From positions 98,357,827 to 98,421,826 of the forward strand of contig NC_092041.1 in NCBI RefSeq assembly GCF_003086295.3: a stretch of DNA of 64,000 nucleotides. Direction: 5' to 3'. Below, piece after piece: positions 985 to 54,589 of this stretch; position 1 is the stretch's first letter, and every line of letters starts with the position of its first letter. The position numbers were made by a program, and so were the translations under genes. This DNA is from Arachis hypogaea (Eukaryota; Streptophyta; Magnoliopsida; Fabales; Fabaceae). The notes below the pieces were generated by a model. The model was not told the DNA's origin. It made no database searches and worked only from the letters and a program-made list of their open reading frames with translations.

Positions 985-1665
985 GCCATTAGTCACTAAC
1001 GTTGGTGGGCACTAACAGTGGCCAACATTCCTTTTAAAACCATTGAGGAATGTTTGTGGCAACGTTTGTGCACTAACGTTACTACCAACGTTTGCCTGGT
1101 CACGTGTGCGCGTCGCTGACCAGTTTTCCATGCAATTTTTCTTTAAAACTATCGAAGATGTTGGTGGCAACGTTTGTGGCAGCGTTTGCACACCAACGCT
1201 TTCTTGGTCATGCGTACACATCGCCCGCGCGTACGTGTCAAAGCTGGATTTTTGCTATTTTGCGCGTGCGCGTCGCCTATGTGTGCGCAAAACTTGCTAT
1301 TTTTCCACTTTCACGCGTACGCGTCACATCAAAATTTTCCAACTCCAAATTGAGATTTCATCGAAGACGTTGGTGGTAACGTTTGTTCACCAACGTTCCC
1401 ACCAACGTTGGCACCCTTTCAGCTTGTAACGTTGCCAGCAATGTTGATGAACCAACTTTGGCCACCAACGTTGCACATCAAGCCTTGGAACGTTGCCACC
1501 AACGTTGGTGAGCCAACTTTGGCCACTAACGTTGCTTTGTTCTCCTCTAGCAACGTTTGAGGCAACGTTGGTGAGCCAACTATTTGGCCACCAACGTTAC
1601 TCACTCCTTCTTAAACCAACGTTCGTGGCAACATTGGTGAGCCAACTTTGGCCACCAACGTTGTC
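985..1665. repeat. AACGTT palindromic dyad array with ~63-bp higher-order repeat
   Basis: AACGTT and near variants (AACTTT, AACATT) recur more than 20 times, usually inside CCAACGTTGG-like dyads with CCACCAACGTTG linkers. Starts alternate 12-14 bp apart within clusters. From 1428 on the clusters repeat as a unit of about 61-66 bp, starting at 1428, 1489, 1552 and 1618. Frames that stay open across it on either strand are by-products of the repeat. The position next to LTR-like DNA suggests the array belongs to a retroelement. Confidence 0.8.
1200..1335. repeat. GCGCGTACGCG-type dyads inside the AACGTT array
   Basis: Between two AACGTT clusters lie GC-rich dyads such as CGCGCGTACG near 1226, GCGCGTGCGCGTC near 1262 and CACGCGTACGCGTCAC near 1312. 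They resemble the dyad array at 12545-12800, so two palindrome families may be intermixed here. Confidence 0.6.
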
Positions 1666-24930: not shown

Positions 24931-25192
24931 ACAGACCTGAATATGTTACATGCATGGGATCGTAATTGATGAATATGTTTTAAACGAAATGTCTGTTGAA
25001 CACACATGGGAATAAATTAGTCTACGAATTAAATTAATTAAGACATGATGCGGAAATTAAATAACATCAAAACGCAAAGTACAGATGTTTTCATAGTAAC
25101 ACACACATACATCTAAAGATGGATACGAAGTAATACTGATAACAAAATACATAGACCAAGATAGGTAATATACAACTCGGCACAGAAATAAT

Positions 25193-28085: not shown

Positions 28086-28164
28086 CAGCTGAGTCTTTGG
28101 TTCTACTATTTCTCGGATCGAATCTGGGTTGTTTTCTCTGAGATTTGGTGGGGTATGGGAGATG

Positions 28165-28515
28165 ACAAGTGGTTCGAATTTGCTTGATTCGAACTTCTTA
28201 TATAGCCCAATTGTTCGTAATTCGAACCAATTTGGTTCAAATTAGTAGTGGAGCTTAATAATGAGTAATTCTAATTCGAACCAATTAGGTTCGAATTATG
28301 TGATGACACATATTCGTGTGTAATTCGAACCAATTAGGTTTGAATTATGTGTTTGAAGTTCGAACCAAATAGGTTCGATTCATGTGCAAATGTAGTTCGA
28401 ACCAAATAGGTTCGAATTACATATAAGTATGCTTTGGCTCATTCGTGAATTAATCTTCAATTTGGCTTATTCATGTTAAAACTTTCCTCCCATGATTTAT
28501 TTGTGTTTTTTACCC
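28165..28515 (-). repeat. Right TIR with internal palindromes
   Basis: Mirror copy of the left TIR, with six or so TTCGAACC...GGTTCGAA-type dyads between 28165 and 28412 and the outer 100 bp nearly identical to the left end. Some dyads carry single changes that break the palindrome. Confidence 0.85.
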
Positions 28516-33280: not shown

Positions 33281-33286
33281 AAATTT

Positions 33287-33304
33287 TGGCACTGTTGACG
33301 GGGA
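33287..33304 (+). other. Primer-binding site of the outer element
   Basis: TGGCACTGTTGACGGGGA starts 6 bp after the LTR end. It matches the tRNA-Asp-type site TGGCGCCGTTGCCGGGGA used by Athila-like elements with three or so changes, so it is decayed or divergent. Confidence 0.7.
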
Positions 33305-33451
33305 ACTAAGTGCAATGAGTGCTATACTTTGGTTGTTGTTAATATGTGAATAGTGTGAATAGATACTTTCTGATTGTTTGTTTGCTTTTGTTGGTAATTA
33401 GGATTTTGTTTCTTTTGATTGATGTCTTTTGTTTTTGTTTCCTATTTTCTC

Positions 33452-34591
33452 TATGAGTTATCACCCTCTTGGTTTGAAGTTTGGTTGTGATCATTTTGTA
33501 GGATTGATAACCTCAATTTTGGATTGCATCATGGGATTGGAGCATCTATTTTGGAAGGAGCAACCTCCTCTATACTACAATGAGCCATACCCTTCCCAAT
33601 GCACATACCCAAACCAAGGATATGGTGAATTTCATCTTGATTATACACCTCCACCACCATATACTTATGACCCATACCCCCAACACAACCCTCAATCACC
33701 ATATTTTTAAATACCACACTAATACCAACATCTACCTTCTTCATACCACCTCTAAACACTTGCCAACATAAGTCACCTCCCACATATACAAACTTTCTCC
33801 CAAATTATGAACCTCAATTTTCACCCCAATGTGAAGCTTTCCCACCCTTGGTCCAAGAATCACAAGACCTTCAAGCCTTTCTCCAAGAGCAAGAAGGATT
33901 CTGAAGCACACAAGGGCACTTCATGGCTACCATAGCTGAAGTGGTGAAGCGCTTAGTTCTACTACGCTCATCCGATCAAGGCACTCCTCTTGAAAAGTGT
34001 GAAGGAGCAATTGAAGGGTGTAGTGAAGAGGAGATCATGGAGCCACAAGCGGAAGAAGAGGAGCTAAGGTTTGAACAGCAACAAGAGGAGGAAGGTGAGA
34101 CAAGTGAACTGGAGGAGAGAAAGGAAGAGTTGAGGGAGATTGATCGAGATGAGGATTCCATCATTCATGATTTTTTGTTCTCCTTGGTTAATCCCCTTAA
34201 TGATCCTAATGATCCTCTTCCCATTGAGTTTGAGAGAGACATGGAGGTAGACTTCTCACAACCTCCTTGTTATAATGTGAGTGATGGGGAAGAGGAGGAA
34301 GACAATCAAGAGCATATTGAGTGTGTGGCAATTGCACCTATGAACTTCATTGGCCCCTATCAATATGCTATCTTGGAGATAGATTACCAACTCAATGTCC
34401 TTCTTGGGTTGATACATGGTGGAAAAAGGAGTGTGGGTTGCCAAGAGAATCCAAGGATCTTCAAGGAAATCAATTCAAGAGTTGGAGCTCAAGCGTGGTG
34501 GGAAGCACAATTGAGTGATTTCCAGAGAGTGTTGGGGGACTACAAGGGTAAGTTGATAGTTTGTCCATCCGGCTTAAAGCATGAAGATTAA
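33452..34591 (+). pseudogene. Gag-like or accessory acidic protein of the outer element, broken
   Basis: Starts MSYHPLGLKF with a Pro/Tyr-rich N-terminal part (YTPPPPYTYDPYPQHNPQSP), then a frame change, a TGA near 33902 in a QEQEGF context, and an open stretch 33923-34591 (222 residues). This has MATIAEVVKRLVLLRSSDQG, a long Glu-rich segment and an IDYQLNVLLGLIHGGKR region. No zinc knuckle, protease or polymerase motif is seen. I do not recognise a function; placement right after the leader suggests a gag-position protein of a non-autonomous retroelement. It is not a host gene. Confidence 0.55.
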
Positions 34592-34942
34592 CAAGAAGGT
34601 GAGCGGATGCCTAGAATATGGGATCCCGGAGGACCTATAAAGTGCAAGCTAGGATAGAGGTTCAAGGAGGAGTGGAAACATAAGCCACCCTAGCAAAAGT
34701 CTCCACAACAAGTCCAACTTAAGGACTATAACCAAAGTGCTAGGTGGAAGACACCCCCATCATGGTAACATCTTTCTTACACTTTCTCTTGGTTAGCTTA
34801 GGATTAGTTTAATTTTGAATTTAGTAGGTTGGTTTTGGTCTGGATCATGATTTTTTGAAGTTATGAATGTTTGGGATTGAATTTTGGTTGAGCTAAGGTT
34901 GAGTGCATGAGATTTTGAAAGAAAAATTTTTGGAAAAACAGG

Positions 34943-35390
34943 GCATGTGCGTACGCACACCCTTGTGCGCACGCACACAACAACAAAATTCTACACAATG
35001 TGCGTATGCACCCACCTGTGCGTACACACACTAGCCTATATGCCCTCTATTGAGAGCGCTCGCACGCTATGTGGGCACACATCTCTCTCTGTTTTGCGCT
35101 TTGTGCGTGCGCACCTCCCTATGCGTACGCACATGTCTTTACACTCCCTCTGGTGGGAGCGCTCGCCCGCCCTATGTGCATGAACCCCTACCCATTTTTG
35201 TTCCTGTGCGTGCGCACAGCCCATTGTCCGTGCGCACACATGATCCTAAACCTGCAAAAAAAAAAGTGTTTTGTGCGTACGCACCCGTTTGTGCGTATGC
35301 ACACGTCTTGTTCCCTCTCTGTTCAGAGCGTTCGCACACCTTGCGCGGACGCGTCCTTCCCTGTTTCGCCTAGTGTGCGTACGCACAAGT
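34943..35390. repeat. TGTGCGTACGCACA paired-dyad array in the outer element
   Basis: About ten 14-bp dyads of consensus TGTGCGTACGCACA begin at 34946, 34964, 34999, 35017, 35102, 35121, 35205, 35225, 35272, 35290 and 35374. They come as pairs 18-20 bp apart. GAGCGCTCGC dyads (near 35055, 35157, 35327) lie between the pairs. The sequence stays open in several frames only because the units lack stops. Confidence 0.85.
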
Positions 35391-35399
35391 GCCGTTTTG

Positions 35400-38120
35400 G
35401 GCAAAATTTTTAATGCACTTTTCTTTGAACCCTAACACACTTCCACCCCCCTTTCACCTCTCTCTTCTCTTATTTTTTTTTCATGTTTCTCTACTTGTTT
35501 TACTTAGTTTTCATTGCATCTCATTTTCATTTTAGTAGTTATATTAGTTTTGGTTTACTTGCTTGTTAATTGAATAAGTTGCAAGTGTTTGTTTAATATT
35601 GATTGGGTTGCTCGTTGCTTGAAGTTTACACCAGTGCACTTATACCTTGCCTTAATTTACTAGTACTTAGTGGATTTGAATACTCATATTTTGATTGTAC
35701 CACTAGGACAAATGATATAAGTGCATTGGATTAAGTGATTTCAGTAGAGATTACTTGTTTATCATGATTTTCATATTAAATTCATCACATGACCGGTACT
35801 TGTTCCTTGTTAATGCTTTGCATTTGTTTGAGTGACTTAACTTGATTCTTATCATGCTTATCACTTTTTGTAACAAGTACCTTTACCATGTGACTATTGC
35901 ATTATGTATCATGATGAACAAGTAGGTTGTTTTAATCATGGAATTGGTTATTGTTTATTGTGCTTCTATATCATTTTGCACCTTCATTTGCACAATTCCA
36001 ATATCCAATACCTCATATACTCAATTCACTTTTGTGGTTACCTAGGGTTGCTTGTGCCTTAAGTTTTGCTTATTCTTTAATTGCAACCTAGGCTACTTAA
36101 TTGAGGAACACATGCTATTATTTTTTGTGTGAATACCGTTTTAACCGGCTATTGTGTGTATTCCAACCGTGCGCATAATTGGAATACACACACGACTCAT
36201 TTTCATCATACCACACCGCTATGCAAACTTCCTCAATTAGAAGCTTATTAGCTCTCCTCTTTACCCTTTTGTGCTACTTGCCCTATGATTTCTAATTATA
36301 CCTTATTCACTCTTTTTGAGGATGAGACATAACGGCAAGGAGTCAGTAGAGAAAGAGGATACCGAGGATGGAGATGCCAAGAATACATTGGACTTGGAGA
36401 TCTCCATGCAACCCAGGCCCCCGCATCCACCAATTGAAGGTGGAGTACTCTAGAGCCATTCTCCCCAAATTGTCTTCATGCAAGGAGGACTATGCAATCG
36501 CTTAAATGTGGGGAGGATTCACCACTTTTGGGGCGTAAATTTCTTTTTCGAACACTTTGCACTTTATTTTTGTTCATTTTTATTATGTTTTTTTTTTGTA
36601 GATATTTGGAGTGTTTTTTATTGTTGCATTGCATCTTCTTCATAGTTTATATCTATTGCATTTTGCATCTTTTGTATGCTATATATTTTATAGATAGAAG
36701 TTGTGATTAGATTTTGTGAATAGTATAGCACCTAGTTCAATTTTGGTCCTAATTGTTCATGTTAGTTTTTGGTTGTTAAAAATTAGGAAGAGAACTAGAA
36801 AAATTTTGAAAAACTGCATCCATCACATCATACATACATATAGAAAATAATTTTGGTGAAAAAACAACAAGGATTTTCCAAGAACTTTTGTTATAGGGCA
36901 TTCTATTGAATTGTTTGAAAAATTATTTTTAAAACTTTCTTGAATGAATTTTTATAGAACATAGAAGAGGAAAGAACAAATACCTCGTGAGTTTTGAGCT
37001 ATATTGAGTGGTTACACATTTTAATCTTGGTTTTACTTTATTCTTTATTTCCGATAGTTGATGTTTGAATGCATTGAGCATGATAGAGGCCATTTTTGAA
37101 TTAAACTCACTCACCCATATAGACCTACCCTTACATCTACCGTTATTAACCCCTTTTGAGCCTTATTTACCCCATTATTTTTAATATCACTACATCACAA
37201 CCTCAAGCGAAAAACCATGATTTACCTTGATTTGTATCCTTGATTAGCTTAGGTTAAACTGTGTGTTTCATTTAAGTGTGGGGAAAGTTTTGGGAAGCAT
37301 TGGTAGAGAAAAAATTTTGTTTTGGGTACTTATTGAAAATTTGGAAGAGAGGGTGCACATTCATGTATCAATTTGCTTTAACCATATGTATTTGTCCTAA
37401 AAAAAAAACAAAGGAAAAAAATAAAATAAAAAAAATAATAATAAGAGGGAACAAATGTTGCCCCCAAAGAAAAAAAAAAGAAATGAATGAATAAGAAATG
37501 CATATGTGTCTTGAATAGAAACCAAGGCATGAATGTGTGTGAAAAGAAGTAATGAGTGGTTAGAATGCATTTTTGTGATTTGATTGATATAGGTTGAGTG
37601 GGATACTTAATCTAATCTAGGATTTAATTCAATTTAGTCCACTTAGCCATATCTATTCCACCTTGACCCTAACCCCATTACAACCCTAATAAGTCCTCAT
37701 GATAATTGCATTCATGCATCACATATTTGTTAATTGTTAGATGAAAAGTAAATCTTTGAAAGCATGATTAGGAGGAGACTTGAGTGAATTGACCCTAAAC
37801 ACCGAGTGACTAGAATGTATACACACCAAGTGAGGGTTCGATCACTCAATTCTATATTTTCGCATCTCTTATCATTCATTCTTGCAAGTTGCTTCATTTT
37901 GAAACTTGAATTAATTCTCTAGATTTTGCTTGCATTGAGCTACTTCTTTGCTTTGCCCCAAATGTTTATACTCTTGCTTGGGAATGTGATTTTTTGTCCT
38001 AACGAAATCAATAGGAAACTATAGATAGTATAGATAAATATAAATAGTATATAGTATACATGCATGTAGGTAGATGCATTGAATAAGTTTCTTGCCCTTT
38101 TATCCTTCTCCTTTTTATGT
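35400..38120. other. Non-coding 3' internal region of the outer element
   Basis: No reading frame of note. Polypurine-like words resembling the true tract (38146-38160) occur early: CTTAAATGTGGGGAGGATT near 36503 and TTTAAGTGTGGGGAAAG near 37270. An inverted-repeat-like pair TGTGTGTATTCCAACC/GGAATACACACAC occurs near 36154-36193. Confidence 0.6.
36150..36195. repeat. Inverted repeat GTGTGTATTCCA / TGGAATACACACAC
   Basis: Arms at about 36153-36166 and 36178-36192 are near-perfect reverse complements around an AACCGTGCGCATAA loop, inside the outer element's internal region. It could form a stable RNA hairpin in the element transcript. Confidence 0.7.
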
Positions 38121-38123
38121 GTT

Positions 38124-38161
38124 TAGCATGAGAACATGCTATTGTTTAAGTGTGAAGGAAT
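38124..38161 (+). promoter_or_regulatory. Hairpin and polypurine tract before the outer 3' LTR
   Basis: TAGCATG-AGAA-CATGCTA (38124-38141) is a perfect 7-bp stem with a 4-nt loop. It is followed by TTTAAGTGTGAAGGAAT, the presumed polypurine tract, and then the LTR start at 38162. The geometry matches the site at 48141-48177 of the inner element. Confidence 0.7.
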
Positions 38162-38667
38162 TGATGAATCCATATTTGATGATAAATTTTGGATTGATTT
38201 GAGTGGATTTCATCATATTAACCCACATTTATTCACCAATATACCATACTTTTGTATTTTCTCTCTAAATTGAGCTTAATTGTGAAAACATGCATTTTTG
38301 TGCTTAAATTGAGCAATTTAATCCCACTTTTATTCTATTTGATTCCGTGATATGTTTGTTGAGTGATTTTAGGTCCTAGAGGCAAGAATGGTTTGGTAGA
38401 AGTAGAAAAAAGCATGCAAAAAGGGAGAAAACATGAAGAAAACAAAGGAGAGAAGCATTTCAGCCTGTGCCCACGCACACCTTCTGTGCCTACGCACAAG
38501 TGTCAAAATCAGCACATGTTCCCATGCACAGGTCTATGCCCACGCACTAGGGTCAAAATCAGCACCTGTGCCCACGCACAAGAGAAAAATCAGCAAGTGT
38601 GCCCATGCCCAGACCTGTGCGTACGCACAGGTACCAGCGCATGCCTCCATTAAAAAGTCACGTGGAT
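38162..38667 (+). repeat. Outer 3' LTR, left part
   Basis: Starts TGATGAATCC after the polypurine tract and is interrupted at 38667 by the inner element. The remainder continues at 49735. Joined by coordinates only, the LTR would be about 1.66 kb. Confidence 0.75.
38466..38632. repeat. TGTGCCCACGCACA dyad array in the outer 3' LTR
   Basis: Dyads begin at 38466, 38485, 38517, 38535, 38567, 38598 and 38616, so steps are 18-19 or 31-32 bp. Linkers share GTCAAAATCAGCAC. It is the same family as the internal array at 34943-35390. Confidence 0.85.
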
Positions 38668-40219
38668 TGATGAGCGGATATTTTGTACGCTTTTTGGGGG
38701 TAATTTCATGTAGATTTTAGCATGTTTCAGTTAGTTTTTAGTAAAATAATATTAGTTTTTAGGCAAAAATCATATTTCTGGACTTTACTATGAGTTTGTG
38801 TGTTTTTCTGTGATTTCAGGTATTTTCTGGCTGAAATTGAGGGAGCTAAGCAAAAATCTGACTTAGGCTGAAAAAGGACTGCTGATGCTGTTGGATCCTG
38901 ACCTCCCTGCACTCGAAATGGATTTTCTGGAGCTACAGGAGTCCAATTGGCGCGCTCTCAACGGCGTTGGAAAGTAGACATCCAGGGCTTTCCAGCAATA
39001 TATAATAGTCCATACTTTGCGCAAGGATAGACGACGTAACTTGGCGTTAAACGCCAAGTTCATGCTGCTGTCTGGAGTTAAACGCCAGAAAAATGTCATG
39101 ATCCGGAGTTGAACGCCCAAAACACGTCATAACCTGGAGTTTAACGCCAAGAAAGGCCTCTACACGTGGAAAGCTTTAGTCTCAGCCCCAGCACACACCA
39201 AGTGGGCCCCAGAAGTGGATTTCTGCACCAATTATCTTAGTTTATTCATTTTCTGTAAACCTAGGTTACTAGTTTACTATTTAAACAACTTTTACAGACA
39301 TTTCTTGTACCTCATGACATTTTCAGATCTGAATTACATACTTTTGACGGCATGAGTCTCTAAACTCCATTGTTGGGGGTGAGGAGCTCTGCAGCGTCTC
39401 GATGAATTAATGTAATTGTTTCTATTTCACTCAAACGTGTGTATGGTCCGATCTAAGATGTTTATTCGCGCTTAATTGTGAAAGAGGTGATGATCCGTGA
39501 CACTCATCACCTCTCTCAATCTATGAACGTGTGCCTGACAAACACCTCCGTTCTACATCAGACTGAATGAACTTCTCTTAGATTCCCCAACAGAATCTTC
39601 GCGGTATAAGCCGGATTGATGGCGGCATTCATGAGAATCCAGAAAGTCTAAACCTTGTCTGTGGTATTCCGAGTAGGATTCTGGGATTGAATGACTGTGA
39701 CGAGCTTCAAACTCCTGAAGGATGGGCGTTAGTGACAGACGCAAAAGAATCAATGGATTCTATTCCAACCTGATTGAGAACCGACAGATGATTAGCCGTG
39801 CTGTGACAGAGCATAGGAACGTTTTCACTGAGAGGATGGGAAGTAGCCACTGACAATAGTGACGCCCTACATGCAGCTTGCCGTAGACGTGCTTTACAAA
39901 CAATTGAGTTAAATATTACATTGCAGGAATTCAGAGGACAAAGCATCTCCAAAACTCCAACATATTCTCCATTACTGCACAACAAGTAACGCTTTTATTT
40001 TTCATTATTAAAGTAATAATTATAAGTTTTATGCCCTTTTCCTTATTAAAATACGAGGCTAAAGAATCCTATTGGTATCCTGACTAAGACAAATAAAATA
40101 AACATTGATTGCTTCAAACCAATAATCTCCGTGGGATCGACCCTTACTCACGTAAGGTATTACTTGGACGACCCAGTGCACTTGCTGGTCAGTTGTGCGA
40201 ATCACAAATTCGTGCACCA
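38668..40219 (+). repeat. 5' LTR of the inner element
   Basis: 1552 bp, with TG...CA ends. It contains four 31-bp-spaced dyads (39043-39150). It differs from the 3' LTR at 38771, 38781, 38870, 39094, 39495, 39641 and 39858, all transitions. Minus-strand open frames inside are duplicated in the 3' LTR simply because the LTRs are copies. Confidence 0.95.
39043..39150. repeat. 31-bp-period dyad array in the 5' LTR
   Basis: Four dyads of the GGMGTTNAACGCC family start at 39043, 39074, 39105 and 39136, exactly 31 bp apart each time. The same four occur in the 3' LTR at 48553, 48584, 48615 and 48646. Confidence 0.92.
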
Positions 40220-40225
40220 AGTTTT

Positions 40226-40243
40226 TGGTGCCGTTGCCGGGGA
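40226..40243 (+). other. Primer-binding site of the inner element
   Basis: TGGTGCCGTTGCCGGGGA lies 6 bp after the LTR end. It differs by one base from the tRNA-Asp-type site of Athila elements. Confidence 0.9.
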
Positions 40244-41049
40244 TTATTGAGTTTGAACAATTGAAGGCATATTTTATTTCTTAGATCAGGAATAATTTAT
40301 TTTTGTTGTTACAGAGTCATTAAATTTTGATAGGATAGTTTCTTTTCAAAAATTTCTTTTCAAAAATATTATTTCTCTTAATTAATTGTTGATTTTTCGT
40401 GAATTTAGTGTCTTATTCTAAGTTTGGTGTTAACTACATATTTTATATTTTCCTTAAAATTTTCGTATTAATGTTCTTGGTTCTTCCTTGATCTTCAAGT
40501 TGTTCTTGATAATTGGTTATACCCTTTGGAACCTTTTTCAAAAATAATTTTTCTTGGATTGAATCTTGTGCCAAACTTTAAATTTGGTGTTTTCTTGTTA
40601 ATCTTTTTATAATTTTCGAAAATTTTATTAAAGTCTTCAAAAAAATTTTAAGTTTGGTGTTCTTCCTTTTGTTCTTGGTGTTCTTGTGAATCTTCAAGGT
40701 GTTCTTGAGTTTTTCTTGTGTCTTGATCTTAAAATTTTTAAGTTTGGTGTTCCTTGGTGTTTTCCCTCCAAAAATTTTCGAAAATAAGGAGCACTAGATC
40801 TAAAAATTTTAAGTCTGTGTCTTTTGTGTGTTTTTCTCTTTCATCATAAAATTCAAAATTCAAAAAAAAATTATTTTCTCTAACTAATTTTGAACCACTT
40901 TTTCGATTTTTTTTTTTATAAATCTTAGATTTTAATTTCAAAGTTTTCGAAATATATTCAAAAAAAAATTTAACTTCTTTCTATATATTTTGTTTTTACT
41001 TATTCCATTTTCTTTAAATCAACATATAAATTATCTCTTGTAATCCAAT
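40244..41049 (+). other. Leader of the inner element with repeated AAGTTTGGTGTT motifs
   Basis: The untranslated leader holds AAGTTTGGTGTT or AAATTTGGTGTT at about 40419, 40580, 40650 and 40740. The same word forms the polypurine tract before the 3' LTR (48163-48176). The leader is T-rich with many TTTTCGAAAATTT-like segments. Confidence 0.8.
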
Positions 41050-44000
41050 ATGGAAGTAAGTATGAATGGACAAGACAAGAGGACTCTGGGGTCATATGCT
41101 AACCCCACTACTGCTTCATATGGGAGTAGTATCTGTATACCCTCCATTGGAGTTAGTAGCTTTGAGCTGAATCCTCAGCTCATTATCATGGTGCAGCAAA
41201 ACTGCCAGTATTCTGGTCTTCCACATGAAGAACCTACAGAGTTTCTGGCACAATTTCTGCAAATTGCTGATACAGTACATGATAAAGAAGTGGATCAGGA
41301 TGTCTACAGATTATTACTGTTTCCATTTGCTGTAAAAGATCAAGCTAAGAGGTGGTTAAATAACCAGCCTAAGAACAGCATAAAAACATGGAAACAGCTG
41401 TCAGAAAAATTCCTGAATCACTATTTCCCTCCAAAACGGATGACACAGCTAAGGCTAAGCATCCAAGGCTTCAAACAAGGAGATAATGAATCCCTCTATG
41501 ATGCCTGGGAGAGATACAGAGAGATGCTAAGAAAATGCCCCTCTGAAATGTTTTCAGAATGGGTGCAATTAGACATCTTCTACTATGGGCTTACAGAAAA
41601 AGCTCAGATTTCTCTAGACCACTCAGCTGGTGGATCTATACATATGAGAAAAACAATTGAAGAAGCTCAAGAGCTCATTGATACAGTTGCCAGAAATCAG
41701 CATCTGTACCTAAGCAGTGAATCTTCCATGAAAGAAGAAGCTAAAACAGTGACTGCAGAACTCAGTCCGGTGGATCAGGCTAATGAAATTAATCAACAAT
41801 TGGATTTTCTAACTCAGCAGCTAGCCGAATTCAAGGAAATATTACAGGAAACAAGAATGGCTAACAGGAATATGGAAGTGCAATTAAAGCAGACAGAAAA
41901 GCAACTGTCAAAACAAATAGCAGAAGAATGCCAAGCAGTTCAATTACGAAGTGGGAAAACATTAAATACCTCACTTCAAAGCAGCAGGAAGCCAAGAAAT
42001 GAACAGATGTCTACTCAAAATACCTCTGAGGACAATCAGAGCCCAGAGAGGAATGAAGCTGGCGCTGAACGCCCAGCTCATGCTCATTCCTGGCGTTCAA
42101 CGCCAGAAACAAGCATGGATCTGGCGTTGAACGCCCAAAAGGAACATGGTTCTGGCGTTCAAACGCCAGAGGTGGCTTCTAACGCCACTCCAGCTTCCAC
42201 ACCTGGCATTCAAATGCCAGTGGGTGATCAGTCACATACAAGTGCTGATAACAACCCTTCTAAAAAGGCTTCCCAACCCACTTCTGTAGGTAATAAACCT
42301 GCAGCAACTAAGGTTGAGGAATACAAAGCCAAAATGCCTTATCCTCAAAAACTCCGCCAGGCGGAACAGGATAAGCAATTTGCCCGCTTTGCAGACTATC
42401 TCAGGACTCTTGAAATAAAGATTCCGTTTGCAGAAGCACTTGAGCAAATACCCTCTTATGCTAAGTTCATGAAAGAGATCTTAAGTCATAAGAAGGATTG
42501 GAGGGAAACTGAAAAAGTTTACCTCACTGAAGAATGCAGTGCAGTCATTCTGAAAAGCTTACCTGAGAAGCTTAAAGATCCTGGGAGCTTTATGATACCA
42601 TGCACATTAGAAGGTGTTTGTACCAAGCAAGCTTTATGTGATCTTGGGGCAAGTATCAACCTAATACCTGCATCTACTATCAGAAAGCTTAGTTTGACTG
42701 AAGAAATCAAACCAACCAGGATATGTCTTCAACTTGCTGATGGCTCCATTAAATACCCATCAGGCGTGATTGAAGACATGATTGTCAAGGTTGGGCCATT
42801 TGCCTTTCCTACTGACTTTGTGGTGCTGGAAATGGAGGAGCACAAGAGTGCAACTCTCATTCTAGGAAGACCTTTCCTAGCAACTGGCCGAACCCTCATT
42901 GATGTCCAAAAAGGGGAAGTGACCTTGAGAGTCAATGAGGAGGAGTTCAAGTTGAATGTTGTTAAAGCCATGCAACATCCAGACACCCCAAATGACTGCA
43001 TGAGTGTTGATATTATTGACTCTCTGGTAAGAGAGGTCAATATGGCTGAGAGTCTCGAATCAGAGCTAGAGGACATCTTTAAAGATGTTCAGCCTGACTT
43101 GGAGGAATCAGAGAAGATAATAGAACCTCTGAAAGTCCCTCAAGAAGAGGAGAAACCTCCAAAACCTGAACTCAAACCATTACCACCATCCCTGAAATAT
43201 GCATTTCTGGGAGAAGGTGAAACCTTTCCTGTAATTATAAGCTCTACCTTAGAGCCACAGGAAGAGGAAGCACTAATTCAAGTGCTAAGGATGCACAAGA
43301 CAGCTCTTGGGTGGTCCATTAGTGATCTTAAGGGCATTAGCCCAGCCAGATGCATGCACAAAATCTTGTTGGAGGATGACGCCAAGCCAGTGGTTCAACC
43401 ACAAAGGCGGCTGAATCCAGCTATGAAAGAAGTGGTGCAAAAAGAGGTCACTAAATTACTAGAGGCTGGGATTATTTATCCTATTTCTGACAGCCCCTGG
43501 GTGAGCCCTGTCCAAGTTGTCCCTAAGAAGGGTGGCATGACAATGGTTCATAATGAAAAAAAAATGAACTGGTCCCTACAAGGACAGTTACAGGGTGGCG
43601 TATGTGCATTGACTACAGAAGGCTCAATACAGCCACCAGAAAGGATCATTTTCCTTTACCATTCATAGACCAGATGCTAGAAAGACTAGCAGGTCATGAA
43701 TACTACTGCTTCCTGGATGGATATTCAGGTTATAATCAAATTGCAGTAGATCCCCAGGATCAGGAGAAAACGGCATTCACATGCCCATCTGGAGTATTTG
43801 CATACAGAAGGATGCCATTTGGCCTGTGCAATGCACCTGCAACCTTTCAGAGGTGCATGCTCTCAATTTTCTCTGATATGGTGGAAAAATTTCTGGAAGT
43901 CTTCATGGATGACTTTTCAGTATTTGGAGACTCATTCAGCTCCTGCCTTTACCATTTAGCACTTGTTCTAAAAAGATGCCAAGAGACTAACCTGGTTTTA

Positions 44001-45995
44001 AACTGGGAAAAATGTCATTTTATGGTGACTGAAGGAATTGTCCTTGGGCACAAAATTTCGAACAAGGGAATAGAGGTGGATCAAGCTAAGGTAGAAGTAA
44101 TTGAAAAATTACCACCACCTGCTAATGTTAAGGCAATCAGAAGCTTTCTGGGGCATGCAGGATTCTATAGGAGGTTTATAAAAGATTTTTCAAAAATCGC
44201 CAAACCTCTGAGCAACCTGCTAGCTGCTGACACGCCATTTATCTTTGATAAAGAGTGTCTGCAGGCATTTGAGACTCTGAAAGCTAAATTGGTTACAGCA
44301 CCAATCATCTCTGCACCAGACTGGACATTACCATTTGAACTGATGTGTGATGCCAGTGACCATTCCATTGGTGCAGTGTTGGGACAAAGGCATGACAAGC
44401 TTCTGCATGTCATTTACTATGCCAGCCGTGTTCTAAATGATGCACAGAAGAATTACACAACCACAGAAAAAGAGCTACTTGCAGTGGTTTACGCCATTGA
44501 CAAATTCAGATCCTATTTAGTAGGATCAAAAGTGATTGTGTATACTGATCATGCTGCTCTTAAATATCTACTCACAAAGTAGGATTCAAAACCCAGACTC
44601 ATCAGATGGGTGCTGCTTCTGCAAGAGTTTGATATAGAAATAAGAGACAGAAAAGGGACAGAAAATCAAGTAGCAGATCACCTGTCCCGAATAGAACCAG
44701 TAGAAGGGGCGTCCCTCCCTCTCACTGAGATCTCTGAAACCTTTCCGGATGAGCAACTGTTTGCCATCCAGGAAGTGCCATGGTTTGCAGACATTGCAAA
44801 CTACAAGGCAGTGAGATTCATACCCAAAGAGTACAGTAAGGTGCAATCAAAGAAATTAATCACAGATGTAAAGTACTATCTTTGGGATGAACCATATCTC
44901 TTTAAGAGATGTGCAGACGGAGTAATCCGTAGATGTGTGCCTAAAGAAGAAGCACAGAAGATCCTTTGGCACTGCCATGGATCACAGTATGGAGGACATT
45001 TTGGAAGTGAACGAACAGCCACAAGAGTCCTCCAAAGTGGCTTCTACTGGCCTACTCTCTATAAAGATTCCCGAGCATTTGTGCTTAACTGTGATAGTTG
45101 CCAAAGATCAGGCAACCTGCCTCACAGTTATGCCATGCCTCAACAAGGAATCTTGGAGATTGAGTTGTTCGATGTATGGGGCATTGACTTCATGGGACCT
45201 TTCCCACCATCATACTCAAACACTTATATTCTGGTGGCAGTGGATTATGTATCCAAATGGGTGGAGGCTATTGCAACACCCACTAATGACACTAAAACAG
45301 TGTTAAAATTCCTCCAGAAACATATCTTCAGCAGATTTGGTATCCCTAGAGTGTTAATCAGTGATGGGGGCACTCATTTCTGTAATAAACAGCTCTACTC
45401 TGCTCTAGTATGTTATGGAGTCAACCACAGGGTGGCTACTCCATATCACCCACAAACTAATGGGCAAGCTGAAGTCTCAAATAGAGAACTTAAAAGAATC
45501 CTGGAACGGACTGTAATTAACCGTAGAAAGGATTGGGCAAGAAGCTTGGATGATGCTCTGTGGGCATACAGAACAGCATTTAAGACCCCTATAGGGACCT
45601 CTCCATACCAGCTTGTGTATGGAAAGGCATGTCACTTGCCAGTGGAACTGGAACACAAGGCCTACTGGGCAACCAGATTCCTAAACCTTGATGCCAAGTT
45701 AGCTGGAGAAAAACGATTGCTCCAGTTAAATGAGCTAGAGGAATTTAGACTCAATGCTTTCGAGAATGCAAAAATTTACAAGGAGAAAGCAAAAAGATGG
45801 CATGATAAGAAATTGTCATCCAGAGTCTTTGAGCCAGGCCAGAAAGTTCTGCTATTCAATTCCAGGCTCAAATTATTCCCTGGGAAATTAAAATCCCGGT
45901 GGAGAGGTCCATATGTAATTACAAGTGTATCACCATATGGATACGTAGAGCTTCAGGATAATGACTCTAACAAAAAGTTCATTGTTAATGGATAG
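41050..45995 (+). pseudogene. gag-pol of the inner Athila-like element, three lesions
   Basis: Starts MEVSMNGQDK. Gag (about residues 60-175) includes AKRWLNNQPKNSIKTWKQLS; LRSGK follows at about residue 300; I see no CCHC knuckle. The protease has DLGAS with its catalytic Asp at residue 531 (42640). Reverse transcriptase runs across a frameshift in an A9 run at 43556-43564, then continues in another frame with FMDD at 43902-43913. RNase H ends at a TAG at 44580-44582 in LLTK. Integrase has the zinc segment ([19 protein letters not shown]) and the D-D-E core ([35 protein letters not shown]) and ends at a TAG at 45993-45995 that looks premature, as about 20 similar residues follow. Both TAGs fit CAG-to-TAG change. 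No env-like frame follows. Confidence 0.93.
42061..42217. repeat. 31-bp-period dyad array inside the gag-pol reading frame
   Basis: Dyads start at 42061, 42092, 42123 and 42154 (steps of 31), with weaker ones at 42174 and 42205 (again 31 apart). Because 31 is one more than a multiple of three, successive copies are read in different frames (GAERP, WRSTP, LALNA, GVQTP). The coding copies use C or G at the centre, which avoids the TAA present in many non-coding copies. Confidence 0.92.
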
Positions 45996-46280
45996 AGAGT
46001 TAAACATTATCTTGAAGGCAATTTTGAGCAAGAATGCTCAAAACTGAGACTTGATTAAAAGCTCAGTAACAGTCCAGCTAATGACATTAAAGAAGCGCTT
46101 GCTGGGAGGCAACCCAGCCAAATCACAAAATTTAATTTTATTTGCTTTTCTATTTGATCAAGTTTTACAGGTAGATGCTAGTGTATCTTCAAAAGGTGAA
46201 ATAGCAATTGATTGAAGTCACAGAGTTACAGGGAAATTTGGAAGCTCACTGGCGTGAGAAAGCCAGTAAGAAACACTTTG

Positions 46281-46580
46281 GGCGTTAAACGCCCAAAAGA
46301 AGCACCCACTGGGCGTTTAACGCCAGTAAGGGTAGCCATCTGGGCGTTAAACGCCAGAAAGGAGCATCTTCTGGGCGTTAAACGCCAGAAAGAAGCACCT
46401 TCTGGGCGTTTAACGCCAGTCTGCTAGCATCCTGGGCGTTCAGAAAAACGCCCAGTAAGAAAGGACTTCCTGGCGTTCAACGCTAGAAAGAAGCATCATA
46501 TGGGCGTTGAACGCCCAGGAGAAGCAACAATTGGGCGTTAAACGCCCAAAACATGCACCAGTTGGGCGTTTAACGCCAGG
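46281..46580. repeat. 31-bp-period dyad array, ten units, in the 3' untranslated region
   Basis: GGCGTT starts at 46281, 46312, 46343, 46374, 46405, 46435, 46472, 46503, 46534 and 46565. Steps are 31 bp, except one of 30 and one of 37 around a decayed sixth unit. Each 13-14 bp dyad (GGCGTTNAACGCC, often extended to TGGGCG...CGCCCA) is followed by a variable ~17-bp linker rich in AGAAGCA. Confidence 0.95.
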
Positions 46581-46589
46581 ATGGTGGGG

Positions 46590-48140
46590 AGGAGGTAAAA
46601 TTCGTTTTTCTTCACATATTTTCTAATTTTTATGTTTCAATTCATGATTTCTTGCATAAACATGTTTCAAAATATCATCCTTCAATTCCAAAAATTTTAA
46701 TCCTAATTTCTAAAAATCCTAATTTCTAAAACCCCTTTTTCAAAAATATCAAATATATCTTAATTCATAAACACAAATCTTTTTCCAATCCAATTCTTTT
46801 TCAAATCTTTTTAATTTCTTCTCATATCTTTCTCAACTCATCTTATCTTTTTTTTCGAAACTGCCTCTCCTTCTATTCCTCTCCTTTCCTTTCTTTTGCT
46901 TGAGGACAAGCAAACCTCTAAGTTTGGTGTGATGTGCCATGATCACTGAGTTAAAACTCATTAAGATCATGGCACCTAAGGGAACAAGAAGAGCAAGGAT
47001 GTGAACTTAAGGGAGCTGAAGCGTCAGAAATTAATTCTTAAAGGCACCCCACAGACTAGAGGAACATCCACTTCCCAAAACACAGGTCGTTGAGTTCTAA
47101 TCTTTGCCTTAACTCTGTGATAACTGTTCTTATTAGAAATTGACCTTAGAAGTTATATATTAGTAGTAGTAATTAGTATCTCTACTTTGATTTTAATTCC
47201 AATTAAGTTATAATTTATTTTTCTCATCATCATCAAACATGAATAAAATAGTAGATTCTTAGAATAAAGAGGAAATATTTTTTCGAGTTCTTAACAAGGA
47301 AAATTCTAATTATTTATATGTGGTGGCAATACTTTTTGTCTTCTGAATGAATGCCTGAACAGTGCATATTTTTGATATTGAATTTTATGAATGTTAAAAT
47401 TGTTGGCTCCTGAAAGAATGATGAACAAGAGAAATGTTATTGATGATCTGAAAAATCATGAAATTGATTTTTGAAGCAAGAAAAAGCAGTGAAAAACAAG
47501 CTTGCGAAAAAAAAAAATTTACAAGGAATCACTGGATAAAGAAAAAGAAAAAGCCAATAGCCCTTAAAACCAAAAGGCAAGGGTGAAAAGGATCCAAGGC
47601 TTTGAGCATCAGTGGATAGGAGGGCCCAAGGAAGTAATTCCAGGCCTAAGCGGCTAAATCAAGCTGTCCCTAACCATATGCTTGTGGCATGCAGGTCCAA
47701 GTGAAAAGCTTGAGACTGAGTGGTTAAAGTCGTGATCCAAAGCAAAAAGAGTGTGCTTAAGAGCTCTGGGCACCTCTAACTAGGGACTCTAGCAAAGCTG
47801 AGTCACAATCTGAAAAGGTTCACCCAGTTATGTGTCTGTGGCATTTATGTATCCGGTGGTAATACTGGAAAACAAAATGCTTAGGGCCACAGCCAAGACT
47901 CAATAAGTAGCTGTGTTCAAGAATCAACATACTAAACTAGGAGAGTCAATAACACTATCTGAATTCTGAGTTCATATGGATGCCAACCATTCTGAAATTC
48001 AAAGGATAAAGTGAGATGCCAAAACTGTTCAGAAGCAAAAAGCTACAAGCCCCGCTCATCTAATTAGAATCTGAGCTTCACTTAAAACTCTGAGATATTA
48101 TTGCTTCTTGATTTCTTTTTATCCTCTTTTATTCATCTAG
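46590..48140. other. Non-coding 3' region of the inner element
   Basis: No env-like or other open frame above about 60 residues is seen on either strand. There are pyrimidine-rich stretches near 46860-46895 and a purine-rich block at 47440-47530. Confidence 0.7.
46896..46930 (+). promoter_or_regulatory. Internal copy of the hairpin and polypurine-like motif
   Basis: TTGCTTG-AGGA-CAAGCAA (46896-46913) followed by CTAAGTTTGGTGTGATG repeats, 1.25 kb upstream, the hairpin, polypurine tract and first bases of the 3' LTR. It could be an old duplication or a secondary plus-strand priming site. Confidence 0.65.
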
Positions 48141-48177
48141 TTGCTTGAGGACAAGCAACAGTTTAAGTTTGGTGTTG
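48141..48177 (+). promoter_or_regulatory. Hairpin and polypurine tract before the inner 3' LTR
   Basis: TTGCTTG-AGGA-CAAGCAA (48141-48158) is a perfect 7-bp stem with a 4-nt loop. It is followed by TTTAAGTTTGGTGTTG and the LTR start at 48178. Confidence 0.75.
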
Positions 48178-49729
48178 TGATGAGCGGATATTTTGTACGC
48201 TTTTTGGGGGTAATTTCATGTAGATTTTAGCATGTTTCAGTTAGTTTTTAGTAAAATAATATTAGTTTTTAGGCAAAAATTATATTTCTGAACTTTACTA
48301 TGAGTTTGTGTGTTTTTCTGTGATTTCAGGTATTTTCTGGCTGAAATTGAGGGAGCTAAGCAAAAATCTGACTTAGGCTAAAAAAGGACTGCTGATGCTG
48401 TTGGATCCTGACCTCCCTGCACTCGAAATGGATTTTCTGGAGCTACAGGAGTCCAATTGGCGCGCTCTCAACGGCGTTGGAAAGTAGACATCCAGGGCTT
48501 TCCAGCAATATATAATAGTCCATACTTTGCGCAAGGATAGACGACGTAACTTGGCGTTAAACGCCAAGTTCATGCTGCTGTCTGGAGTTAAACGCCAGAA
48601 AAACGTCATGATCCGGAGTTGAACGCCCAAAACACGTCATAACCTGGAGTTTAACGCCAAGAAAGGCCTCTACACGTGGAAAGCTTTAGTCTCAGCCCCA
48701 GCACACACCAAGTGGGCCCCAGAAGTGGATTTCTGCACCAATTATCTTAGTTTATTCATTTTCTGTAAACCTAGGTTACTAGTTTACTATTTAAACAACT
48801 TTTACAGACATTTCTTGTACCTCATGACATTTTCAGATCTGAATTACATACTTTTGACGGCATGAGTCTCTAAACTCCATTGTTGGGGGTGAGGAGCTCT
48901 GCAGCGTCTCGATGAATTAATGTAATTGTTTCTATTTCACTCAAACGTGTGTATGGTCCGATCTAAGATGTTTATTCGCGCTTAATTGTGAAAGAGGTGA
49001 TGATTCGTGACACTCATCACCTCTCTCAATCTATGAACGTGTGCCTGACAAACACCTCCGTTCTACATCAGACTGAATGAACTTCTCTTAGATTCCCCAA
49101 CAGAATCTTCGCGGTATAAGCCGGATTGATGGCGGCATTCATGAGAATCCGGAAAGTCTAAACCTTGTCTGTGGTATTCCGAGTAGGATTCTGGGATTGA
49201 ATGACTGTGACGAGCTTCAAACTCCTGAAGGATGGGCGTTAGTGACAGACGCAAAAGAATCAATGGATTCTATTCCAACCTGATTGAGAACCGACAGATG
49301 ATTAGCCGTGCTGTGACAGAGCATAGGAACGTTTTCACTGAGAGGATGGGAAGTAGCCACTGACAATGGTGACGCCCTACATGCAGCTTGCCGTAGACGT
49401 GCTTTACAAACAATTGAGTTAAATATTACATTGCAGGAATTCAGAGGACAAAGCATCTCCAAAACTCCAACATATTCTCCATTACTGCACAACAAGTAAC
49501 GCTTTTATTTTTCATTATTAAAGTAATAATTATAAGTTTTATGCCCTTTTCCTTATTAAAATACGAGGCTAAAGAATCCTATTGGTATCCTGACTAAGAC
49601 AAATAAAATAAACATTGATTGCTTCAAACCAATAATCTCCGTGGGATCGACCCTTACTCACGTAAGGTATTACTTGGACGACCCAGTGCACTTGCTGGTC
49701 AGTTGTGCGAATCACAAATTCGTGCACCA
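48178..49729 (+). repeat. 3' LTR of the inner element
   Basis: Same length as the 5' LTR with differences at 48281, 48291, 48380, 48604, 49005, 49151 and 49368. It is followed by the TGGAT target duplication at 49730-49734 and then the right part of the outer LTR. Confidence 0.95.
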
Positions 49730-49734
49730 TGGAT

Positions 49735-50888
49735 TCGCGTTTTGGGAGCTTTTTGGCCCATTTTTGAAGGCTTTGGAGCATATATGAAGGTGGAAGCAAC
49801 CACACATCATACCATACACTACCATACTTCATACAATAGTTTTTAGGAGTAGTTTTAGGGTAGTTAGCTTAGGTTTTCTCTCAATTTCGTTAGGGTTTTA
49901 TTAGGTTTTCAATGTAGAATTTTATAGTTCAAGATTTGCTTTTGGATTTTGCTATCTCGATGTATGTATTTCTTTAATTTCCTCTTTTATTATACTCTTT
50001 GTTCTACACTTTCTTCTATTTTAAGTCACTTTGTCAATACACATTTGATTTTGCATTTTTGGATTTCTAGTTGATGAATTTGATATTTGATGATTATTAC
50101 ATGTTTGTTTGAGTTGCTTTTATTGATTTTTATCATTTATGGTTCATAACTTTTATCATTCCCCCAATTTTGCCATGTTTTATGATATTGCTCTCCATGT
50201 GTTCGATGAAATACCAATTTTGATTATGGGGTAAATTTCACCCCTTGGCTTGGGAAAAATGAGTTTATAGATTACTAGAGCCAAATGTCCAACATTTAGT
50301 GATAATTCTTGGGTTGTTAGTTGTTATTGTTTCTACTAACGCTAGCTTTTTACCAATTAATTTGGTAAGTTAACTAGGATTTGTGGATTAATAACAATTA
50401 TGCTCACTTGACTTATCCTTTGATGTTAAGGGTTGACTTAGTGATATTAATCCATCATAATTATCATAGTTGTGGTTATGGTAAGTAAGGGATTCTATAA
50501 TTCATCCTAAGGCAAGATTTCATTTATGTTTTGAACCACATTTTCATTACTTTATAGATTTACTTGTTCACATTACATACATAGTTCTTTTATTCTTTTA
50601 TTAGTTTATTAATTGCAATTTTGAATCATTCTTTAATTGCTTTATTTTGTTTGCTCTCATAATTGAAAGCCCCTTTTGCCTTTCACAACTAGTTTTATGC
50701 ACTTGTTGGCACTAGTTCCTAGGGAGAACGACTCGGGAGTCTAAATACTCTTGGTTAATTTGGTTTGAATTGTGACATTATCTTGAATTGAATTTTGATT
50801 GAGAGGATCCATTGCCAGTTTGGACTATACTCACAACGGAATTACTTTATCTAATTTTTTCGAATTGGCATAATTCTCTCATCTATCA
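49735..50888 (+). repeat. Outer 3' LTR, right part
   Basis: It continues the outer LTR after the inner element and its TGGAT duplication. It ends TCTCTCATCTATCA at 50888, like the truncated 5' LTR. Confidence 0.8.
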
Positions 50889-51960
50889 ATGAGCACACCA
50901 AAGATGAAACTTGACGAAACAGTTAACAATCCTGCACTCTATACAAAAACCACCCCAGCGGTTGCGGATGGAACAAACCTAGAAAAGGTGACCGAGATAT
51001 AAATATAGAACTTAAAACAGTAGCCATAATCCAATATGTAAAGAACAATATAAGCTAAAACAATACAAGCTAAAAATGATTACCCTATTAAAAATCAATA
51101 TCATCATCAAAGTCTGCAACATCATAATATTCATTTTTATTAGCCCCAGAACTAAAGCCGATGGACAATTCGACAATGCAGTCCCCTCCAAATGGAGACT
51201 TAAGACTAATAGGAGGCTTGGTGTCAGAAATCCTAGAAGGATTACTCTCATCCACTTGATAAGTTACATCATTCTCTTCCTCATCCTCCTCTACATGTAC
51301 ATGATTGATTTCAATTCGACCTCTTGGTTTAGTGTTTACAACAACACGCCACATAGACTTGCAATTTCCAGGATAAGGTAAGAAGTAAACTTGTTTAGCT
51401 TTTTGGGCGACAATGAAAGGATTATAGTGGCGATATCTTTTACTATGGTTGAATTCAGTTATTTTGTAGTCCTTATGAATACGTGTTCCCATTGGACGAC
51501 TTAGATCATACCATTGACATTTGAACAAAACAACTCGATTAGAGTCACTACCAGTGTATTCAAGTTCGAGTATATCTTCTAATACTCCAAATCAATCACT
51601 TTTCCCATTGCCTATATCACCTTTAACAGACACACCGGTGTTATTATTTTTTTTTCCTTTTGCCTTTGTAAGAGTATGAAATGTATATCCATTTACTTTA
51701 TAAATTGGATAACTTGTTGCTTTGTTTGAAGGGCCCCAAGAAAATGATTGCAAACCAGGATCAACAATTTCATTGCATTGATTTTGAACCTAGTTAGAAA
51801 CATGCAACAAATTATTTAATAGAAGTGATATGTGATGCAAATCTTTAGTTAGAAACCTTTACAATAAATGATACGAGTTTATGCACTTACATATGATGCA
51901 AACCAAGGGAGAAATCGGTCATCGCTTTCTCTAGGACAAGTTTCTTTCCAAAACCTTGAT
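50889..51960 (-). pseudogene. CACTA transposon protein fragment with DUF4216 domain
   Basis: The minus-strand open frame 51528-51088 (146 residues) carries the DUF4216 signature: LFKCQWYD-like start (MFKCQWYDLSRP), FNHSKRYRHYNPFIVAQKAK, QVYFLPYP and WRVVVNTKPRGRIEI, then an acidic tail ending DFDDDIDF. Upstream (to about 51960) further pieces match, with stops: VDPGLQSFSWGPSNKATSYP, VNGYTFHTLTKAKGKK, LEDILELEYTGSD. DUF4216 is the C-terminal domain of the first CACTA protein. The transposase core is missing. It probably belongs with the Transposase_24 fragment at 30857-32777, on the other side of the outer retroelement. Confidence 0.8.
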
Positions 51961-53399: not shown

Positions 53400-54540
53400 A
53401 TTATTTTCTCTCATTTAGAGTTCATTTGTTTGGTTAATATTATTTTTAGCATTATCATTTGTAATTATTTTATTTATTTAAGTAGTCATGAGTTATATGT
53501 ATATGATTAATGTCTAATTTATAATATTTTAGTCTATGAATATTAATTATATTAATATTATAAGTATTCTATAAATATCATAATTAAGAAAGAATGGTAA
53601 TATTATTTAAATTGTTATAATATACAAATATTATAATTAACAAATAACTAGAATTTTTAATTATTTTCTGAAATAATAAAAAAATATATATCAGTTTTTT
53701 ATTTTTTGGATAATTTTTATTATAATATTATATTATTTTAACTTAAATAGTTATATTTAATAATATTATATTAATTTATAATTATTATAATTAATAAATT
53801 ATACTAATATTTTAAAATTATATTTTCTGCAAGAAATTCTAAATATTTTCGGATATTATTTTTTAAAATAGTTTTAATTATAATATTATATTATTATAAT
53901 TTTCTACTATTATAATTAATAAATAATGAGAATTTTTAATTATTCATTATTTTTTGCAAGAAATAAAAAATATATTTTGGAATTTTATTTTTTTGGATAA
54001 TTCTAACTATAATATTATATTATTGTAACCTAAATAATTGCCGTTAAAAATATTATTTTAATTATTAATTATTATTATAATAACTAAATAATAATATTTT
54101 AATAATTATATTTTATGCAAGGAATTAAAAATATTTTTGGATATTATTTTTTTAAACTAGTTTCAATTATAATATTATATTATTATAACTTAAATAATAT
54201 TCAATATATTATTATAATTTGTAAATATTATAATTAATAAATAACTAAAATTTTTTAATTATTAATTATTTTCTGAAAATAATTAAAAAATATTTCAGAT
54301 TTTTATTTTTTTTGGATAATTTTAATTATAGTATTATATTAATTTAATTTAAACAGTTGTAGTTAAATATATTATTTTAACTAGTAATTATTATAATTAA
54401 TAAATAATAATATTTTAATAATTATATTATCTGCAAGTAATTAAAAATATTTTCAGATTATATTTTTAAAATAGTTTTAATTATGATATTATATTATTAT
54501 AACTTGTAAATATTATAATATTTTTGTTTAATGTTTGTTA
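53400..54540. repeat. AT-rich two-part tandem repeat, ~290-bp period
   Basis: One word (TATTTTTTGGATAATTTTAA type) occurs near 53697, 53980 and 54298; an alternating word (GGATATTATTTTTTAAAATA type) occurs near 53858, 54142 and 54454. Both are followed by TATAATATTATATTATT. The period is about 283-318 bp with three repeats. It lies directly upstream of the first recognisable PMD segment at 54590 and may be intronic. Confidence 0.65.
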
Positions 54541-54589
54541 ATGTTTAAATTTTTTTGTTGTACTAGGCTAACAGAAACATTTTGCCCTG

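Follow-up and report, generated by a model that had tools for sequence, protein, structure and literature searches.

In a 64,000-nucleotide stretch of Arachis hypogaea DNA (contig NC_092041.1, positions 98,357,827 to 98,421,826; hereafter the window), a complete long terminal repeat (LTR) retrotransposon, which is FIDEL or a close relative by its primer matches, carries arrays of one short palindromic motif, the dyad GGCGTTNAACGCC, in three places: in its LTRs, inside gag and in the spacer just after pol. The feature is real and probably selected, of a design near to a known kind, but placed in another superfamily and partly inside a gene. The reading that we favour, and to which we give about an even chance, is that of a regulatory dyad array seated in the U3 part of the LTR, which would act on double-stranded DNA bound by a dimeric protein and would have been copied into gag and into the post-pol spacer.

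Arrays of one dyad in a FIDEL-family retrotransposon

The dyad was found 21 times with at most two mismatches, against a mean of 0.33 and a largest value of 3 in 100 dinucleotide shuffles, and its units are distributed as four in each LTR, four in gag and ten just after pol (Table 1). All the unit starts listed in a preliminary description of this sequence were recovered. That description had also spoken of a single palindrome in all compartments, repeated at an exact 31-bp period: the common palindrome stands, but only 11 of the 18 units in the 5' LTR, gag and post-pol set are exact, and the period is dominant rather than exact, since 13 of 15 steps measure 31 bp and the other two (30 and 37) lie around the split unit 46435-46452, whose arms are six bases apart. 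As for the remaining deviations, the LTR array has one perfect unit, lying within a 23-bp palindrome (39038-39060), and three units with a GGAGTT left arm, units 2-4, which read GGAGTTNAACGCC; gag unit 42061 reads GGCGCTGAACGCC, gag unit 42154 has a centre two bases wide and post-pol unit 46472 ends in CGCT. Inverted 6-base arms with at least three G or C and a spacer of 0-8 start 52.9 times per kb within the arrays; elsewhere in the element the figure is 2.5 per kb. An artefact of chance or base composition has next to no probability: nothing was found for it, and both the shuffles and the density of arms rule it out.

The assignment of the host element depends on published FIDEL primers for quantitative polymerase chain reaction (qPCR), six of which, out of eight, match it at 18-20 of 20 bases; the pairs FIDEL197 and FIDEL274 predict amplicons of 167 and 161 bp, as published (39683-39849 and 47884-48044). 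The two remaining primers fit poorly (15 of 20), FIDEL496F having no good match in the element, and FIDEL412, whose array-side primer matches at 15 of 20, gives a predicted amplicon of 186 bp against a published one of 183. The family was described by Nielen et al. 2010, according to the part of PMC3496627 that was available. The copy is young; its LTRs are 99.55% identical by self-BLAST (7 differences), and a target duplication, TGGAT, is read on both sides (38663-38667 and 49730-49734). The order of its domains (gag, protease, reverse transcriptase, RNase H, integrase) is that of Ty3 elements, gag-pol is broken by a frame change and a stop codon, and the primer binding site is one that we take to be of the tRNA-Asp type. 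A site of this type is, along with the phylogeny of the reverse transcriptase, a mark of the Athila lineage, to which the element may belong. Outside gag-pol the element holds no open reading frame (ORF) of at least 100 amino acids, a cut-off that short, spliced or trans-encoded proteins would escape; this includes the region between 45996 and 48177, where neither an env-like ORF nor, on the antisense strand, an ORF of that size was found after pol. The element also has six copies of a polypurine-tract-like AA(G/A)TTTGGTGT, four in the leader (40420, 40580, 40650 and 40740), one internal (46920) and one at the 3' LTR junction (48165).

Table 1. Positions in the window of the FIDEL-family element, its dyad arrays and related features
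Feature	Position	Strand	Basis or detail
FIDEL-family LTR retrotransposon, complete	38668..49729	+	11,062 bp; LTR pair by self-BLAST, flanks read, FIDEL primers match
5' LTR	38668..40219	+	1552 bp, TG...CA
Rival TATA candidate TATATAATAG	38999	+	pattern search; upstream of LTR array
LTR dyad array	39043..39148	+	4 units (39043/39074/39105/39136), steps 31/31/31
G-box CACGTG	39163	+	pattern search
TATTTAA, candidate TATA box	39278..39284	+	pattern search; downstream of LTR array; putative assignment
Primer binding site TGGTGCCGTTGCCGGGGA	40228..40245	+	read from sequence
gag and protease frame	41050..43668	+	Retrotrans_gag, Asp_protease_2
gag dyad array	42061..42167	+	4 units (42061/42092/42123/42154), steps 31/31/31
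Extra gag dyad GGCATT-CA-AATGCC	42205..42218	+	both arms changed symmetrically
Reverse transcriptase and RNase H frame	43557..44579	+	RVT_1, RT_RNaseH_2
Integrase frame	44583..45995	+	Integrase_H2C2, rve
Post-pol dyad array	46281..46577	+	10 units, starts 46281 to 46565; 7 of 9 steps exactly 31
3' LTR	48178..49729	+	self-BLAST
3' LTR dyad array	48553..48658	+	same as 5' LTR array; starts 48553/48584/48615/48646
Outer LTR element, in which FIDEL is nested	33284-38667 and 49735-50889		split by FIDEL
Outer element, internal array of GTGCGTACGCAC	34947..35386	+	12 hits, at most 2 mismatches
Outer element, LTR array of GTGCGTACGCAC	38467..38628	+	4 hits, at most 2 mismatches
Third LTR element, array of CCAACGTTGG	996..1664	-	11 hits, at most 1 mismatch

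Conservation of the dyads and origin of the copies

Column conservation was computed on 16 of the 18 units, the two with altered centres being excluded. Mean information amounts to 1.75 bits in the dyad columns, 0.63 in the linkers and 0.09 at the axis base, which is free and flanked by an invariant T and A. Of the 35 CpGs in the arrays 33 are inside dyads, so that CpG density is 33 in 222 dyad positions versus 2 in 288 linker positions (Fisher P 6e-11), and gag-pol outside the arrays has 35 CpGs in 4839 positions. Within gag-pol the observed/expected CpG ratio is 0.10 before and 0.17 after the gag array, and it is 0.85-1.15 in the three arrays. The palindrome itself appears to be under selection.

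The linkers had been described as variable, but they are not simply so, and some of their sequence is common to the compartments. Over 13 linkers, those of different compartments have on average 6.1-7.8 of 18 bases alike versus 4.8 (sd 1.9) when shuffled, and LTR units 1 and 2 have linkers that agree with their gag counterparts at 12 and 11 of 18 bases. Since the linkers are partly common to the compartments, a single ancestral monomer is the probable source of all three arrays. The comparison suggests, without proving it, that this monomer was copied as blocks, whatever the direction.

It is possible to explain such arrays by neutral repeat dynamics, in which a palindromic 31-bp monomer is multiplied through slippage and the copying of blocks, while symmetric repair or copying of hairpin-prone DNA lets the palindromes persist. 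Local duplication predicts that post-pol linkers resemble each other most, as they do (mean 11.2 of 18), and the gag arrays of relatives show units duplicated in frame (30-nt steps, and alternating 32/31 in the relative P0002). However, with the units of the three places pooled, the dyads are far better kept than the linkers; CpGs, which in methylated DNA mutate more readily than any other site, are retained almost only in dyads; and two other LTR elements of the window have dyads of another sequence at a like place in the LTR. We therefore regard a purely neutral origin as unlikely.

The gag units are read in three different frames, as GAER, RSTP, ALNA and GVQTP. Because a 31-nt step shifts the frame every time, the gag array is not a protein repeat, and this candidate was discarded. 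An array of this kind, present at the nucleotide level and running through three frames, offers a clear candidate case of non-coding selection acting on a coding sequence.

Protein relatives of gag were then considered for the same runs. GAER/RSTP/ALNA/GVQTP-like runs occur in 8 of the 12 closest relatives, all from Arachis hypogaea. Looser motifs were used for these runs, and isolated matches outside them (TLNT, ASNA, ASNV) were left out of the step count; in the window and the 8 relatives all 36 steps fall within 30-32 nt, and 24 of them are 31. The preliminary description named members devoid of arrays or with random spacing as what would refute it; this check, made on gag proteins, did not refute it. 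The number of units goes from 3 to 6 per copy, some copies being cut by the gene model, so that arrays turn over and dyads stay. As for the other close relatives, P0006 and P0008 span the array site and have no array, which is either a real loss or an annotated intron, P0012 starts downstream of the site and P0010 is devoid of that region; in P0007 and P0011 the run is truncated, which may be due to introns of the annotation. No array was found in 27 further proteins (P0013-P0039, four of them from Arachis), where just three single motif matches occurred.

A proposed dimer site in U3, or possible pairing in RNA

The LTR array begins 375 bp from the start of the LTR, and 130 bp separate its end from TATTTAA, so its place in U3, relative to the true start site, would follow if TATTTAA is the TATA box. 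The FIDEL412 primers are located at 38962 (20 of 20) and about 39147 (15 of 20), and their amplicon would span the LTR array. In the published account, as far as it was available, this amplicon is reported as stress-induced by reverse transcription qPCR, 1.74-fold in water-limited plants. Transcripts over the LTR array probably exist, because the induced amplicon would span it; they do not indicate whether the array has its role in DNA or in RNA. The published FIDEL412 primer on the array side (39128-39147) implies a dyad unit with an altered right arm, GGCGTTTAACTC, while the window alters the left arm, GGAGTTTAACGC; judging from the primer, separate FIDEL copies may have lost dyad symmetry on opposite sides.

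Two other LTR elements of the window have dyad arrays of their own. In the outer element, GTGCGTACGCAC has 16 matches with at most two mismatches versus 0.21 expected, with none elsewhere in the window; CCAACGTTGG, with 0.97 expected, has 12 matches at up to one mismatch, of which 11 belong to the array of the third element. The arrays start about 305 bp (outer) and 285 bp (third) into LTRs whose starts are putative, as the window holds no intact LTR partner, and about 80 and 160 bp lie between their ends and the sole TATA-like box of the LTR stretch examined (49781 and 834), in a scan that included the string TATATG because it had already been noticed at 49781. With this reservation on the LTR starts, the position is similar to that of FIDEL, and a like place in the LTR with an unlike dyad suggests that symmetry is kept rather than sequence. 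CpG contrast is present in the internal array of the outer element (observed/expected 1.07) and in the array of the third element (1.01).

We can hypothesize the following mechanism. The element would own a family-specific, CpG-containing dyad array with its main seat in the U3 part of the LTR, each dyad being the putative site of a symmetric dimer, either a host transcription factor or another dyad-binding protein; with a spacing of about 31 bp, or three helical turns, the dimers would face the same side of the helix. The gag and post-pol copies would derive from the same monomer, copied as blocks and growing or shrinking by slippage, and the extra internal sites might be retained because they aid transcription of the element or its escape from silencing.

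Several observations weigh against this reading. A TATA-like box also lies at 38999, upstream of the LTR array, and with this second candidate the array could sit in the RNA leader. LTR units 2-4 carry a common, uncompensated left-arm change, so that the presumed main seat does not hold to strict symmetry; unit 46435, which keeps its arms around a six-base centre, is more in keeping with pairing than with a rigid dimer site. The FIDEL LTR shows a weaker CpG contrast (observed/expected 0.65-0.73 in its parts other than the array), and the LTR array of the outer element shows none (0.52; window 0.61). Linker identity between compartments is just moderately above that of shuffles, and LTR unit 3 and gag unit 3 agree at 7 of 18. 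The gag relatives are few and akin to one another, and their steps are therefore not independent; these steps are 30, 31 or 32, so that 31 is a mode and not a law, and four more distant Arachis gags (P0016, P0026, P0027 and P0029) have no array. Finally, other spacings are frequent in the outer and third elements (18 and 35 bp, or 12-14 bp). Since spacings differ among elements, the 31 bp are FIDEL's own and, the steps of the relatives varying as well, helical phase is not general.

The dyads might instead act in RNA, by inter-unit hairpins, by dimerisation or packaging, or through small RNAs made by Dicer as for the palindromes of Sireviruses, which the available text describes as small-RNA hotspots. 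All units being mutually complementary, a transcript would form long hairpins between units. The four array stretches fold far below their shuffles (z -4.5, -9.7, -7.9 and -9.6, with 0 of 200 shuffles as good in each case), mostly by pairing of unit with unit, although some units fold on themselves. Pairing between units would also account for the invariant T and A around a free axis base, and arms persist despite the widened centre at 46435 and the symmetric double change at 42205. However, any palindrome array is expected to fold well, so the z-scores are no proof of selection for RNA. Covariation of the arms, proposed by the preliminary description as a check, is weak within FIDEL: apart from the double change at 42205, there are five one-sided changes in 16 units, four of which (C to A in three LTR units and T to C at 42065) are not G-U compatible, the one at 46484 being so. 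Neighbouring axis bases are complementary in 7 of 12 cases (P 0.30 within arrays; pooled P 0.016), RNA pairing does not need CpG retention, and no Rfam family matches at the gathering threshold in 34800-49800. On balance a role in RNA is possible, though we consider it rather unlikely, and a dimer site in double-stranded DNA is still the reading that we prefer. Taken overall, the roles first offered for the arrays (protein scaffold, nucleosome or silencing mark, RNA packaging or dimerisation, recombination repeat) find partial support.

Other features were observed in the window. The outer element has a tRNA-Asp-like primer site, TGGCACTGTTGACGGGGA, after the end of its 5' LTR, and its one ORF of 228 amino acids (33905-34591) has no Pfam match. 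A MULE-like element (24643-28515), classified by its ends only, has inverted ends 92.6% identical over 244 bp, termini GGGTAAAAAACACAAAT, flanks ACATTTTTA/ATATTTTTA and arrays of TTCGAACC/GGTTCGAA palindromes at both ends; a minisatellite of AAACCACTTACA-type units lies inside it (27582-27943). A CG-rich palindrome cluster at 12540-12800, with CCGACGCGTACGCGTCGG at 12769 and several degraded CACGCGTACGCA-like copies, is perhaps a further element. A tandem array rich in A and T, whose unit measures about 290-320 bp, occupies 53598-54551.

A wider and quite speculative idea, which we think improbable, is that several kinds of peanut elements each have a private dyad (GGCGTTNAACGCC, GTGCGTACGCAC, CCAACGTTGG and TTCGAACC/GGTTCGAA) in the promoter, and FIDEL and the outer element also in the body. 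This dyad would be a tag of self-recognition that serves sequence-specific anti-silencing or activation. LTR elements and DNA transposons would have converged on such tags, and the effect would be strong enough to have shaped the coding sequence of gag.

Comparison with known systems

VANDAL elements, which are DNA transposons, encode the motif-binding VANC, unlike FIDEL, which has no extra ORF of at least 100 amino acids after pol. In the available passages on VANC anti-silencing (PMC5735166, PMC10398659), family-specific short motifs are amassed as tandem repeats with a fast turnover, and no word starting with "palindrom" occurs in these papers. Retand resembles FIDEL in having tandem arrays between pol and the 3' LTR; however, FIDEL has no antisense ORF of that size after pol, and dyad copies in LTR and gag are not described for Retand in the text available (PMC11963269). 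Concerning Ty3-type elements, LTRs of the Del group have variable 5' CpG islands in some grasses, and the eudicot Del group has none (PMC4029996, in part); the words "dyad", "tandem" and "symmetr" are absent from the available text of that paper, and neither its passages nor those of PMC10760457 contain a Ty3 dyad array.

In the accessible parts of the literature on palindromic repeats in gypsy or Arachis LTR elements, the feature was not found in a Ty3 element, and the passages of PMC6911290, PMC11302176, PMC10578108 and PMC5904367 held nothing altering our reading. The dyad spelled out in four versions was not found in literature text. Viral contigs gave no relatives: four pattern stretches were obtained, none of which was confirmed, and the dyad pattern gave no stretch. 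Four genome-contig stretches in bacteria (Prauserella, Novosphingobium) were set aside as unrelated by organism name. Arrays of such design are already known, while no account of the Ty3/FIDEL case, with its copies in LTR, gag and post-pol spacer, came to light in the accessible parts of the literature searched.

The preliminary description knew of no named function for the arrays; a close precedent, however, exists in the repeated motifs of Sireviruses, which are Ty1/copia elements. According to the parts of PMC2829016 (Bousios et al. 2010) that were available, these motifs are palindromic dyads with CpG islands, whose LTR copies start 200-400 bp in, upstream of the TATA box. Additional copies lie in the interval from pol to ENV, and two elements have some where ENV begins; the linker copies are confined to elements with ENV, mostly upstream of it, and the core CGG-CCG is found in 12 of 13 tabulated elements. 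Sireviruses also carry multiple polypurine tract copies upstream of the 3' LTR (same source). The motifs are said to be absent from "classic retrotransposons", but the start of the abstract indicates that this comparison set is Ty1/copia, and Ty3 elements may therefore not have been tested.

Like those motifs, as far as the available passages describe them, the FIDEL dyads are short, present in high copy number, family-specific and rich in CpG, with copies after pol. Their 18 units (5' LTR, gag and post-pol), 11 of them exact, reach the figure of at least 8 copies per element, and they begin 375 bp into the LTR, with TATA candidates on either side. Unlike them, FIDEL is of Ty3 type and not Ty1/copia, its core is GGCGTT/AACGCC and not CGG-CCG, its ten post-pol units occur with no ENV ORF, and it has an array inside gag and a dominant 31-bp step. 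The Sirevirus motifs are, in our comparison, the closest described feature, and FIDEL seems to follow much the same plan with the gag array in addition. Palindrome arrays, described as a feature of Sireviruses, are now seen in a single 64-kb peanut window, where a Ty3-type element and two more LTR elements each have an array with a dyad of its own. If this is general, they would be a convergent feature of plant elements and a ready marker of control regions, and would offer a natural experiment separating DNA binding from RNA pairing.

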